This document shows positions 46,521-51,368 of a stretch of DNA of 64,000 bases, one piece after another. The stretch is from Verrucomicrobiia bacterium (lineage in GTDB: Bacteria > Verrucomicrobiota > Verrucomicrobiia > JABWAM01). Below the pieces are notes generated by a model that saw only the letters and a program-made list of their open reading frames with translations, had not been told where the DNA came from and ran no database searches. Location: positions 1-64,000 of the forward strand of contig JADZFN010000055.1 in assembly GCA_020849895.1 (NCBI GenBank). Reading direction: 5' to 3'. Each line of letters opens with the position of its first letter. The first letter of the stretch is position 1. A program made the translations under genes and the position numbers.

Positions 46521-47654
46521 GTGAAATCCATTCGTCTCGGCGTCCTCGGCGTCGGTGGCATGGGCGCCCACCATGCGAAAACCGTTCTCGATGGCAAGGT
46601 CCACGGCCTCGAGCTGGCCGCCGTATGCGACCTCAACGTCGCCGCGTTCAAGCTCGCGCCCGACCTTCCCCGCTTCACCGATTCGGAGGCCTTGCTGGAC
46701 GCGGGCCTTGTGGACGCCGTCCTCATCGCCACGCCGCATTACGCGCACACCACGCTCGGCATCGCCGCGCTGAAACGCGGTCTCCACGTCCTCGTTGAAA
46801 AGCCGATTTCCGTCCACAAGATGGACGCCGAACGCCTCGTCGCCGCGCACCGTGGGAAGAAGCAGGTTTTTGCCGCGATGTTCAATCAGCGCACCGACGC
46901 CCAGTTCATGAAGGTGCGCGAGCTCGTTTGCAACGGATCCCTCGGAGAGATCCGCCGTATGAGCTGGATCGTCACCGACTGGTTCCGTTCGGACGCCTAC
47001 TACGCGTCCGGATCCTGGCGTGCCACCTGGGAAGGCGAAGGCGGCGGCGTGCTCCTCAACCAGTGCCCGCACCAGCTCGATCTCCTCCAATGGATTTTCG
47101 GGATGCCCGCGCGCGTGCGCGCCTTCTGCCGCTTCGGGCGCTACCACAGGATCGCCGTCGAGGACGACGTTACGGCGTATCTCGAGTTTCCGAATGGGGC
47201 GACCGGCGTCTTCGTGACCACCACCGGCGAACTGCCGGGGACCAATCGCCTCGAAATCGCCGCCGAGAACGGGCGGCTCATCCTCGAAGGCGGCAAGATC
47301 GAATTTCTCCGCAACGAAATTCCCACGACGAAGTACTGCCGCACGACGGCGCGCCTCATGGGTGCGCCGCCGACCTGGAACATCGCCATCCCCGTGTCGA
47401 GCGCCATGTGGGGCGGACAGCACCAGCTCGTGCTCCAGAACTTCGCCGACGCCATTCTCGAAGGGAAACCGCTCATCGCGCCCGCCTCGGAAGGGGGCCG
47501 CTCGGTCGAGCTCGGCAACGCGATGCTCCTTTCGACCTGGCTCGATCGCACGATCGAACTGCCGATGGATGGACGCCTCTTCGCGCGCGAACTTCAGAAA
47601 CGCATCCGCGCCGAGCGCGCCACGAAGAAAAAGGGCAGAGGTCCCCGCCGCTGA
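46521..47654 (+). CDS. Gfo/Idh/MocA-family oxidoreductase
   Basis: A 377-residue NAD(P)-dependent sugar or cyclitol dehydrogenase. The Rossmann motif is GVLGVGGMGAHHAK and the catalytic lysine lies in HVLVEKPISVH. GGGVLLNQCPHQLDLLQWIFG is the typical C-terminal-domain segment with the conserved histidine. The N-terminal start fits well (MKSIRLGVLGVGG). Substrate unknown. It is divergent from glnB and ends in front of an intrinsic terminator; another family member lies convergent. Confidence 0.92.
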   Translation: MKSIRLGVLGVGGMGAHHAKTVLDGKVHGLELAAVCDLNVAAFKLAPDLPRFTDSEALLDAGLVDAVLIATPHYAHTTLGIAALKRGLHVLVEKPISVHKMDAERLVAAHRGKKQVFAAMFNQRTDAQFMKVRELVCNGSLGEIRRMSWIVTDWFRSDAYYASGSWRATWEGEGGGVLLNQCPHQLDLLQWIFGMPARVRAFCRFGRYHRIAVEDDVTAYLEFPNGATGVFVTTTGELPGTNRLEIAAENGRLILEGGKIEFLRNEIPTTKYCRTTARLMGAPPTWNIAIPVSSAMWGGQHQLVLQNFADAILEGKPLIAPASEGGRSVELGNAMLLSTWLDRTIELPMDGRLFARELQKRIRAERATKKKGRGPRR

Positions 47655-47719: not shown

Positions 47720-49003
47720 TCAGCCCCGCAGTTCGCTCAGCTCCACGGTCCGTCCTTCGCGCCGGGACTTTTCCGCTGCGAAGACCACGGTGTGCGAGCG
47801 CAGGGATTCCTGTGCGTTGGTGAGAATGAGCCCGGCTTTTTTCTCCCGGATCGCCCTCAACCACGCGCGGACCACCCGGTCGTCACCGCCGCCGTGGCCC
47901 CCTTCCTCTTCCTTCACGAGGATCTCTTCGGTATTCCCGCTCGCGAAGGGGCGGACCACAATCCGGTTCTCGAAAAACTCCATTTCCCCCTCGGTGCCGT
48001 GCAGACGGATCTTGCGGCCGCCGGTTTGCGTGAAGGCCGTCATCGTGAAGGTGGCGGTGATCCCTCCCTTAAATTCCATGGCGACGACCTGGTGGTCCAC
48101 CACGTCGTTGCCCGCGCGCCAGACGCAGCGGCCGTAGGGGCCTTTGCGGATCGCCTCGAGGTGCGCCGCGTGCGAGTGGTCGGGGGAAACCGCGGTCGCA
48201 GGCCAGATCTCGCGGTTGCCGTTCACGTAGTGGCGGATCGCCGAGTAGGGGCAGGTCTCCTCGACGGCGCAGCCGTCCGTGCAGCGTTCCGTGCTCCCTT
48301 TTGGGGCGTGTTCAGGGCGGAAATAAGACAGCGATCCGAACGAGCTCACTCGCAGGCATGGCGCGCCGACAAGGTGGCAGATGTAATCCACATCGTGGCA
48401 GCTCTTTGCCATGAGCATGAAGGTGGACTCCGCCTCGCGTCCCCAGTTGCCGCGCACGAAGCTGTGCGCCTGATGCAAGAAGGCCACCGCTTCGAGCTGG
48501 TCGAGCGACACGAGCTTCCCAATCCGCCCTTCATCGAGCAGGTTTTTCAGCGTTGCGAACGCCTTGTGGTAACGGAGCGAATGGCACACGGCCACGGCCC
48601 TCTTCGAGCGGCGTTGCGCCGCTTCGATCGCGCGGCAGTCCTCGATCGTCACCGCCATCGGTTTCTCGAGGAGGAGGTCGTAGCCCTGATCGAGCGCCGC
48701 CACCGACGGCTCGACGTGCTCCCGGTCCATGGTGGCGACGATCACCGCGTCGCACGACTTCGGACGCGCAAGGAACTCCCGCCAATCCTTGAAAACCGCG
48801 CCTTCACCCAGCCCGTGTTTTTTCGCGAATGCCTCGCGATATGCCGCGCGCGGTTCCGCCACGGCCGCCACCCTCGTCTGCGTTGGTATCTTTGCGAGGA
48901 GCTCGCCGAAGTGGACGCCCCTCCCACCCGCGCCGAAGACGGCCACGGCAAGCGGCTTTGAGGAGGCGCGGGAGATGGAGCGGGAGGGGAGAGACTTGGA
49001 CAT
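47720..49003 (-). CDS. Gfo/Idh/MocA-family oxidoreductase
   Basis: A 427-residue member of the same superfamily as its convergent neighbour but clearly divergent. The Rossmann motif is AVFGAGGRGVHFGELL and the catalytic-lysine motif DLLLEKPMAVTIEDC. A cysteine-rich insertion (CTDGCAVEETCPYSAIRHYV, about 245-265) is seen in one subgroup of PVC oxidoreductases. The MAKSCHDVDYICHLVG segment holds the conserved histidine region. Substrate unknown. It lies 9 bases after thyX on the minus strand. Confidence 0.9.
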   Translation of the reverse strand: MSKSLPSRSISRASSKPLAVAVFGAGGRGVHFGELLAKIPTQTRVAAVAEPRAAYREAFAKKHGLGEGAVFKDWREFLARPKSCDAVIVATMDREHVEPSVAALDQGYDLLLEKPMAVTIEDCRAIEAAQRRSKRAVAVCHSLRYHKAFATLKNLLDEGRIGKLVSLDQLEAVAFLHQAHSFVRGNWGREAESTFMLMAKSCHDVDYICHLVGAPCLRVSSFGSLSYFRPEHAPKGSTERCTDGCAVEETCPYSAIRHYVNGNREIWPATAVSPDHSHAAHLEAIRKGPYGRCVWRAGNDVVDHQVVAMEFKGGITATFTMTAFTQTGGRKIRLHGTEGEMEFFENRIVVRPFASGNTEEILVKEEEGGHGGGDDRVVRAWLRAIREKKAGLILTNAQESLRSHTVVFAAEKSRREGRTVELSELRG

Positions 49004-49012
49004 GCGTCCACT

Positions 49013-50584
49013 TCAAATTAATCGGGCGTAATCGTCAAGGTTCAAGCGCCATACGGGAATCCCGCAGTAGCGCTCCCCTTCGGGGCAGATCGGCCTCTGC
49101 CCGGCGCGGTCGCGCAGGCCGCAGGGCGGCAGAAGAAACTTTCCGATGCGCGGGTTCACCTCGCGCACCTGGCGGGCTTCGTCCAGCGCTGCGAGCCAGA
49201 TTTCCTCCTGCGCGTTGTAACAGAGCCGCATTGCGCACTTGTGGCGGAGGCTCATCAGATCGGCCGATTCGGTGAAGCGGATCGCCACGGCGTTCGGGAG
49301 CGCGTAGGCGGCGAACTCGTCCGGAGCGCCCGCCGCGCGCAGTGCCGTGAGCCCCTCCCACGCGCGCGCCATCGCCCGTTCGTAGAGCGCACGGCATTTC
49401 GCGTCGGCCCGCACCACCGCCGGGGTGATGTAGTCCGGGTCGCGCGTCAGATAGGCCGCGAGACAGGGACGCGACCCCGGCGTCATGCGGTGGCGCTGGT
49501 CCTGGGAATCGGCCGTATGACTGAGTTTTTTGCGAAAGGTCCATGCGGGATGGAAGAGGGCGCGCGCCACCTTCGAAAGGCTCGTGAGGTTCATCGCTTC
49601 TCCGAGGAGGCGGTTGCGCGCGGGATCGAGCGCCAGGGCGATCGCGTCGTCGTCTTCCAAGTCGGCACGCGGCGCGCCGAGGACCTCGCGTACGGCGTCG
49701 GCCAGCAGCTTTTCGTTGTTCACCTTGTGGTCCACGAGCAGGGAAACCCGTCCGCCGAGGTCCACGTCGAATTCGTGGATGAACTGCGCCTGGGCGCGGG
49801 CGTCCGCCGCGCCGACGGCTTCCCGGAAGAAACGGTGCTCCGCGGTTTCCTCGAGGGGGATCGGTTCTTCGAGCACCGCCCGGTATCCGGGTGCGACGCG
49901 GAGAAGCTCCTCCACCATCGCGCCGACCACGAGCGCCTGTTCCGCCGGCGCATCCATCTGGCGGCAGCAGCGGTGGTAGCGCATCAGGGTGATGCCGCTC
50001 ACCGTATGGTAGAGGTTGGTGAACGTGCCGATCGGAAGCGCGTAGCGCGCCGCCTCCATGCAGCGTTTTCTGATGGCGTCGCGCGTCGTTTTTTCCTCGG
50101 GGTTTTTTGCGCGCCCCTTGAAGCGCGCGAAGTATTCCTCGGCCACCGGTGGTTCGAGCGCCGCTGCCAGCTCCCGATAGGCTTCGAACTGCCCCTCCGT
50201 CGTCCGGCGGTACACTTCGAGCGCCCGCCCCTCCAGGGGCGGCACCGCGCAGGTGTCGGGCTTCACCTCCACATATCGCTGGCTCACCTGCTCCGAGTTA
50301 TAGAACGGATGGCTGTGCAGGAACGTCCAGACGAACTGGCGCGAGACGTTCGCCAGGGCGAACTGGAAGTGGGCATGTTGGAAGACCGTATGATGCCCTC
50401 CCAGGTAAAGGCTTCGCGCCAGGTCGTCGCGGCGCGGCCAGCCCGCCACTTCTTCCGCAGTCACGATCCCCTTCGCCGAGTAGCAGGTGCGCGCCGCGGC
50501 CACAGCGTTGTCGAAGGCGTTCGAAAAAGCCCCCGTGAGACGGACGACGGGCGGCGCGGAGAGGAATCGGAGAGGAACGCTCAT
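49013..50584 (-). CDS. thyX: Two-domain FAD-dependent thymidylate synthase (ThyX)
   Basis: A 523-residue protein, over twice the usual ThyX length, made of two ThyX-like halves. The N-terminal half has NSEQVSQRYVEV, the second part of the ThyX signature, but the RHR positions read HSH. The C-terminal half has an intact RHR (SQDQRHRMTPGSRP) but a degraded second part. ThyX makes dTMP from dUMP using methylene-THF and FAD. Long duplicated forms are known in some bacteria; whether this one is catalytic should depend on complementary halves. ATG 50584 (MSVPLRFLSAPPVV) is preferred over the longer frame. Confidence 0.85.
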   Translation of the reverse strand: MSVPLRFLSAPPVVRLTGAFSNAFDNAVAAARTCYSAKGIVTAEEVAGWPRRDDLARSLYLGGHHTVFQHAHFQFALANVSRQFVWTFLHSHPFYNSEQVSQRYVEVKPDTCAVPPLEGRALEVYRRTTEGQFEAYRELAAALEPPVAEEYFARFKGRAKNPEEKTTRDAIRKRCMEAARYALPIGTFTNLYHTVSGITLMRYHRCCRQMDAPAEQALVVGAMVEELLRVAPGYRAVLEEPIPLEETAEHRFFREAVGAADARAQAQFIHEFDVDLGGRVSLLVDHKVNNEKLLADAVREVLGAPRADLEDDDAIALALDPARNRLLGEAMNLTSLSKVARALFHPAWTFRKKLSHTADSQDQRHRMTPGSRPCLAAYLTRDPDYITPAVVRADAKCRALYERAMARAWEGLTALRAAGAPDEFAAYALPNAVAIRFTESADLMSLRHKCAMRLCYNAQEEIWLAALDEARQVREVNPRIGKFLLPPCGLRDRAGQRPICPEGERYCGIPVWRLNLDDYARLI

Positions 50585-50669
50585 GCGTGAGGTCTTGCGG
50601 ATTTCGCGTCGAGCCTTTACCTTGGCGCAACTCGCGTCCGGTGTCCACGCCCCGAGCGCGCTCCCCGCC

Positions 50670-51368
50670 ATGCCGACCATCCTTCTAGTGGACGACGAAC
50701 CCGCCAACCTCGAAGTGGGCGCCGAACTGGTGGCCGTCGAGGGCTACAAGGCGATCACCGCCGGCGACGGCGAACAGGCCCTTCGCGCCGTGCAGGACTA
50801 TCGCCCCGACCTCGCCATCCTCGACATCGTGATGCCGAAGATGAACGGCATCGAGCTCTGTCGCCGCATCAAGACCAACCCCCTCAGCTACGCGATGCCG
50901 GTGATCATGATCACCGCGCTCACTTCGCAGGAGGACAAGCTCAAGGCGATCCGCGCCGGCGCCGACGATTTTCTCACCAAGCCCTTCGACCGCATCGAGC
51001 TCGCGGCGCGCCTGCGCTCCCTGCTCCGCCTCAAGGCGATCCACGACCGCCTCGAATCCAGCCTCGCCACCCTCCGCGAGATGCAGCAGGCGCGCGAGCA
51101 GCTCCTCCTCCGCGCCGCCCGCGACGTGAACGGTCCGCTCAACGCGATTTCCGACTGCCTCCAATCCGTCGCCTCCGGGCAGCATCTCCTGCCGCCCGAC
51201 GTCTCCCAGAAGATCGAGCCCGCGCTCTTCTGCGTGGACATGGTGGGCTCGATGGTCGGCGATTTCGCGAACATCATGCGCCTCGAACAGGACAAGCTCC
51301 AGATCGCCTATGAATCGCTCAAGGCCGAACAGGCCGCCAACGCCAGGCAGCAGGAACAGCAGAAGTAG
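50670..51368 (+). CDS. Response regulator with degenerate histidine-kinase-like tail
   Basis: A 232-residue protein. Residues 1-120 form a receiver with the acidic pair in LLVDDEPAN, acceptor Asp52 in AILDIVMPKMNG and Lys in FLTKPFDR. Residues about 125-232 form two long helices; EQLLLRAARDVNGPLNAISD resembles a HisKA H-box (SHELRTPLNAI) in which the phospho-histidine is replaced by Arg. No ATPase domain follows. It may dimerise or bind a kinase rather than act on DNA. ATG 50670 is the start; it is divergent from thyX. Confidence 0.85.
   Translation: MPTILLVDDEPANLEVGAELVAVEGYKAITAGDGEQALRAVQDYRPDLAILDIVMPKMNGIELCRRIKTNPLSYAMPVIMITALTSQEDKLKAIRAGADDFLTKPFDRIELAARLRSLLRLKAIHDRLESSLATLREMQQAREQLLLRAARDVNGPLNAISDCLQSVASGQHLLPPDVSQKIEPALFCVDMVGSMVGDFANIMRLEQDKLQIAYESLKAEQAANARQQEQQK

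Follow-up and report, generated by a model that had tools for sequence, protein, structure and literature searches.

Can a protein built from two ThyX copies, each with a broken signature motif, serve as a flavin-dependent thymidylate synthase? This question was raised by one open reading frame in the window, the whole 64,000-nucleotide stretch of contig JADZFN010000055.1 analyzed here. Read on the minus strand from an ATG at 50584 to a stop at 49013, it encodes a protein of 523 amino acids (aa). The Pfam Thy1 profile (PF02511) matched this protein twice, with 96.6 and 71.4 bits at a cut-off of 24.8, in agreement with the initial annotation, which had described two ThyX copies in one protein; the ThyA profile PF00303 did not match it. 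The whole protein also passed the cut-off of the NCBIfam thyX equivalog TIGR02170 by a narrow margin, its 92.2 bits (versus 87.9) being a sum over two stretches. Each half was aligned to a reference profile of ordinary ThyX, led by the Thermotoga maritima sequence that was verified against PDB 1kq4, and the two halves barely matched each other in profile alignment. The layout of the gene and protein is as follows.

49013..50584, minus strand: tandem ThyX coding sequence, 523 aa plus stop (open reading frame call; Pfam and NCBIfam matches).
49856..50548, minus strand: N-terminal ThyX half, residues 13-243 (hhalign to ordinary ThyX, E 1.5e-16; Pfam, 96.6 bits).
49748..49855, minus strand: linker, residues 244-279, predicted to be largely helical (profile alignment and AF2 model).
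49115..49747, minus strand: C-terminal ThyX half, residues 280-490 (hhalign, E 6.7e-15; Pfam, 71.4 bits; matches ThyX structures when modelled alone).
49064..49123, minus strand: C-terminal cysteine tail, C488...C500PEG...C507G (cysteines in at least 99% of 82 tandem proteins).

Two genes for Gfo/Idh/MocA oxidoreductases (46521-47654, plus strand; 47720-49003, minus strand) and a divergent upstream response regulator gene (50661-51368, plus strand) flank the locus, and no evident functional link to the tandem ThyX was found among the adjoining genes.

The AF2 model of the tandem protein had a mean pLDDT of 87.4 and a pTM of 0.87. Foldseek comparison of this model with the PDB returned ThyX structures as all of the top matches, many of them with FAD and dUMP, and the C-half modelled by itself also matched ThyX structures. 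The predicted structures thus indicate a ThyX fold in both halves.

Active-site residues were compared using T. maritima ThyX numbering, which was checked, and a set of 104 ordinary ThyX proteins, which combined T. maritima ThyX with sequences from viral contigs, a Geoalkalibacter plasmid and genomes belonging to the phylum of the window. In this set, H53, H59, Q75, R78, H79, R80, S88, R90, R147 and R174 were invariant, and Y91 was present in 102 of the 104. Among these 11 positions, the N-half has lost Q75, R78, R80 and R174, and the C-half has lost H53, S88, R90, Y91 and R147; no position is missing from both halves, and each is kept at 100% in at least one of them. All 82 tandem proteins aligned retain H53 (H64), H59 (H70), H79 (H92), S88 (S101), R90 (R103), Y91 (Y104) and R147 (R180) in the N-half, and H59 (H345), Q75 (Q361), R78-H79-R80 (R364-H365-R366) and R174 (R453) in the C-half. 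The residues that distinguish the halves are located as follows.

50393..50395, minus strand: H64 (H53, the third-monomer residue), kept in the N-half and lost in the C-half (100% of 82).
50309..50317, minus strand: H90-S91-H92, degenerate RHR position of the N-half (profile alignment; H90 100%, H92 100%).
50273..50299, minus strand: N96-Y104 (NSEQVSQRY), intact substrate-recognition loop of the N-half, with S101, R103 and Y104 at S88, R90 and Y91 (100% of 82).
50045..50047, minus strand: R180 (R147, phosphate-binding), kept in the N-half (100% of 82).
49487..49504, minus strand: Q361-D-Q-R364-H365-R366, Q75 and the intact RHR, kept in the C-half (Q361, R364, H365 and R366 each in 100% of 82).
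49307..49309, minus strand: A426, R147 position lost in the C-half (Ala 37%, Leu 23%, Ser 20%, Gln 4%).
49226..49228, minus strand: R453 (R174, uracil-binding and activating), kept in the C-half, with C207 at this position in the N-half (100% of 82).

The initial annotation had read the N-terminal copy as keeping the SEQ...QRY part with HSH in place of RHR, and this description held: the loop N96-Y104 is intact, and residues 90-93 (HSHP) lie opposite RHR. A one-residue gap ambiguity leaves either HSH or SHP at that position, and both arginines are gone either way. The same half also keeps H53 and R147, beyond the motif residues named there. The C-terminal copy had been described as retaining RHR but losing the rest; its R364-H365-R366 indeed aligned with R78-H79-R80, but the claimed loss was too broad, as Q75 and R174 are kept too. 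An intact RHRxxSxxxxSxR motif occurred in none of the 82 tandem proteins, the window protein included, versus 83 of the 104 ordinary ThyX proteins. Because the residues in question are 100% conserved in 82 homologues and the intact motif is so unevenly distributed, the degenerate motifs are not a product of chance. Considered by itself, the partition gives modest P-values of 0.045 and 0.03, the former being the chance of zero overlap of losses given the loss counts. Of note, both halves depart from ordinary ThyX at some FAD-pocket positions, such as H178 (N457 in the C-half) and N169 (R202 in the N-half), which suggests that the tandem protein may hold FAD in a different mode from ordinary ThyX.

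The split was then compared with the published architecture of ThyX sites. The dUMP site of PolB, a ThyX homologue, is formed by two neighbouring monomers, of which one contributes F79, R82, H83, R86 and R193 and the other E94', S96', A97', R98' and R166' (PMC5003785); by constant offsets of 8 and 19, these residues correspond to F71, R74, Q75, R78 and R174, and to E86', S88', G89', R90' and R147', in T. maritima numbering. The R147 equivalent of PolB binds the dUMP phosphate (PMC5003785). PBCV-1 ThyX shows a matching division: monomer A holds Q75 and R182, the latter taken here to correspond to R174, and monomer B holds S88 and Q89 (PMC3498832). R174 of ThyX activates dUMP (PMC8316439), and H53 is supplied by a third monomer (PMC11940539). 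Since this published assignment matches the split, the C-half corresponds to the monomer-1 set and the N-half to the monomer-2 set plus H53.

We consider it very probable that the tandem protein works as a flavin-dependent thymidylate synthase whose two fused copies have the active-site residues divided between them and form composite sites between N- and C-halves. In the working site, the C-half would act as monomer 1 (Q75, R78-H79-R80 and R174), an N-half would act as monomer 2 (S88, R90, Y91 and R147), and H53 would come from an N-half in the place of monomer 3. The reciprocal sites, which would pair the N-half RHR position with the C-half loop, would be dead because key arginines and the serine are missing. 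Each chain would thus contribute one complete composite site, and a dimer would resemble the ThyX tetramer but have two live sites where the tetramer has four. This geometry is drawn from the literature structures, and we likewise infer that the tandem protein makes dTMP, binds FAD, assembles as a dimer and has dead reciprocal sites. The suggestion in the initial annotation that the fused halves may build composite sites gains support from a residue split that follows the monomer line published for ThyX and PolB.

The genome was searched for other thymidylate synthases with profiles. The own genome of the window (2.85 Mb, 94.4% complete and hence 5.6% incomplete) contained no ThyA (PF00303), no second ThyX (PF02511), no type-II thymidine kinase (PF00265) and no dihydrofolate reductase (DHFR; PF00186). 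DHFR is missing from many ThyX-dependent bacteria. The initial annotation had advised a search for thyA or a second thyX and had named a separate gene of either kind, together with a predicted fold lacking the FAD and dUMP pockets, as grounds against a synthase role; neither gene was detected in this genome, and both halves match ThyX folds. In each of 50 other tandem genomes, PF02511 matches above the cut-off fell only in the tandem open reading frame, with a single extra sub-cut-off match of 20 bits. PF00303 had no match in 45 of these genomes and weak partial matches (33-40 bits) in the remaining 5. We rejected the latter as ThyA, as they cover part of the model, whereas real ThyA scores above 300 bits over its full length; weak matches of the same kind also occurred in genomes with ordinary ThyX. 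The absence of another synthase from all 50 tandem genomes is hard to explain by assembly gaps, and the tandem protein is apparently the sole thymidylate synthase of this bacterium.

Two side observations were made in these searches. Weak PF00303 matches of about 20-80 bits, mostly over model positions 90-222, mark a ThyA-like paralogue family, clearly distinct from full-length ThyA, that is found in many genomes of the phylum and in some tandem genomes. Among 195 same-phylum genomes, for which the match lists were read by eye, none with a full-length ThyA also had a Thy1 match; roughly 20 genomes of the phylum had neither, for which incompleteness, reliance on salvage or synthases that have diverged still further might each account.

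Three other explanations were weighed against composite-site dTMP synthesis. PolB demonstrates that ThyX homologues can methylate UMP (PMC5003785), and the ThyX motif is broken in each half; the protein could thus descend from ThyX but have a different activity, for instance that of a PolB-like UMP/dUMP C5 methylase, with thymidine coming from salvage or from an unknown synthase. We regard this as improbable, because the dUMP-site residues all survive in the union of the halves, the tandem protein is the sole candidate synthase both in its own genome and in 50 further genomes, which span many phyla, and the own genome lacks a PF00265 thymidine kinase for salvage. Alternatively, dTMP might be made through homotypic contacts (N-N' or C-C'), or one half might be just an inert scaffold, a reading to which the ThyX fold and the retention of H59 and H79 in both halves would lend themselves. 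In known sites, however, RHR and S88/R90 come from different monomers, and R78, R80 and R174 would be missing from an N-N' site, and S88, R90 and R147 from a C-C' site, so that neither would be complete; such an arrangement is accordingly improbable as well.

The degenerate motif in each half could also be taken as the mark of a decaying, non-functional duplicate or a regulatory relic. Strict conservation contradicts this: about 110 positions, including all of the partitioned active-site residues, are at least 98% invariant across the 82 tandem homologues. Furthermore, relatives are encoded at 301 loci, and no other synthase was found in the own genome or in the 50 tandem genomes. We give the decay explanation hardly any credence, and an active synthase with composite N/C sites is the reading retained below.

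The domain-duplicated architecture itself has been known since 2009, when a ThyX carrying a domain duplication, one that "has not been characterized", was reported as the sole synthase of Chloroflexi other than Dehalococcoides (Valas & Bourne 2009, PMC3224940). The protein studied here is of that type, with two ThyX domains in one chain and no separate ThyA or ThyX found in the genome, and the Chloroflexi and Thermomicrobium roseum members found in this work fit the same description of a two-domain sole synthase. That report, however, contains no residue analysis or mechanism, whereas the present analysis adds the complementary split, the wide phylum range and the exclusivity within genomes. 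With ordinary ThyX (PF02511, TIGR02170; for example, T. maritima TM0449), the tandem protein shares the fold, the family scores, the union of invariant dUMP-, FAD- and folate-site residues and the sole-synthase role; it differs in its two fused copies, the lack of an intact RHRxxSxxxxSxR in either half, the reciprocal losses and the predicted two-chain pseudo-tetramer. PolB has the same fold and a two-monomer dUMP site, from which the residue assignment was taken, but is a single-domain tetramer that is encoded in an antibiotic (polyoxin biosynthesis) cluster and acts on UMP (PMC5003785). The Thy1 of Thermus thermophilus is also an enlarged ThyX, with an additional domain at its C-terminus (PDB 6j61), but its chain of only ~240-270 aa is too short for a second ThyX copy. 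A literature search that covered few subscription papers found no characterized tandem ThyX beyond the 2009 remark. The complementary-residue analysis, the proposed mechanism, the wide distribution, the sole-synthase evidence and the occurrence of the same split in diverged Opitutaceae-like and virus-borne versions appear to be new. In dozens of genomes spread over many phyla, the tandem ThyX seems to provide the sole path to dTMP. The division of residues between its halves, as subunits divide them in ordinary ThyX, would represent a clear example of gene fusion followed by complementary degeneration. This division would also make the multi-subunit active-site model directly testable, as each residue has one address and the subunit roles could be mutated separately without mixed-oligomer tricks.

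The relatives at 301 loci were found in a scan of one genome per species. Among the best 80 of these 301, record titles named Verrucomicrobia, Planctomycetes, Acidobacteria, Nitrospirae, Myxococcales, Chloroflexi/Anaerolineae, Armatimonadetes, Omnitrophota, Ignavibacteria/Kryptonia, Gemmatimonadales, Sumerlaeota and FCPU426, among others. An 85%-identical relative came from a record titled Verrucomicrobiia, and within the window's phylum the close tandem form is rare, with 2 of 388 genomes carrying it. The T. roseum copy WP_012643046, 44% identical and annotated as an FAD-dependent thymidylate synthase, showed by eye the same split, with the loop in the N-half and RHR in the C-half.

More diverged versions were also found. 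A family of the same class, taken here as Opitutaceae or a near relative and represented by 18 genomes, several of them ~100% complete on a single contig, had only a very diverged tandem form of 448 aa and no full-length ThyA in the 18 genomes. This protein matched Thy1 with 31-48 bits, with a second weak match in some genomes, and does not retain H59 and Q75. Inspection by eye identified 'GQESSTRY' and 'ARYFIP' in its N-half and 'NRHRT' and 'ELRT' in its C-half, that is, the same split of SxRY and RHR. The tandem HMM missed these Opitutaceae-like proteins with default filters and gave weak matches with --max. Profile comparison of the two tandem types linked their N-halves (73%, E 3e-5) but not their C-halves (0.5%), suggesting a possible common ancestry. 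Similarly, two putative viral contigs of 137 kb and 43 kb (IMGVR_UViG_3300043411_001170 and IMGVR_UViG_3300003154_000049, the latter also with a DNA polymerase) carried further diverged tandem copies with the same split by eye.

In a tree of the halves and ordinary ThyX, the N- and C-halves were not joined and the branches were long; the tandem protein may have arisen from the fusion of two different ThyX genes. More speculatively, a single ancient ThyX fusion might have converted the symmetric tetramer, with its four sites, into an enzyme that is obligately asymmetric and has two live composite sites and two dead ones, and that then spread by transfer across many phyla and viruses and replaced both ThyA and ordinary ThyX in those lineages. 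The dead sites might in that case have taken on a new role, such as oxygen shielding, NADPH entry or allostery; we hold this scenario as tentative and rather doubtful. The C-terminal cysteine triad is a possible metal site. Among ordinary ThyX proteins, a cysteine tail like that of the tandem C-half (C...CPEG...CG) was also observed in Geoalkalibacter and in 62 of 65 viral sequences.
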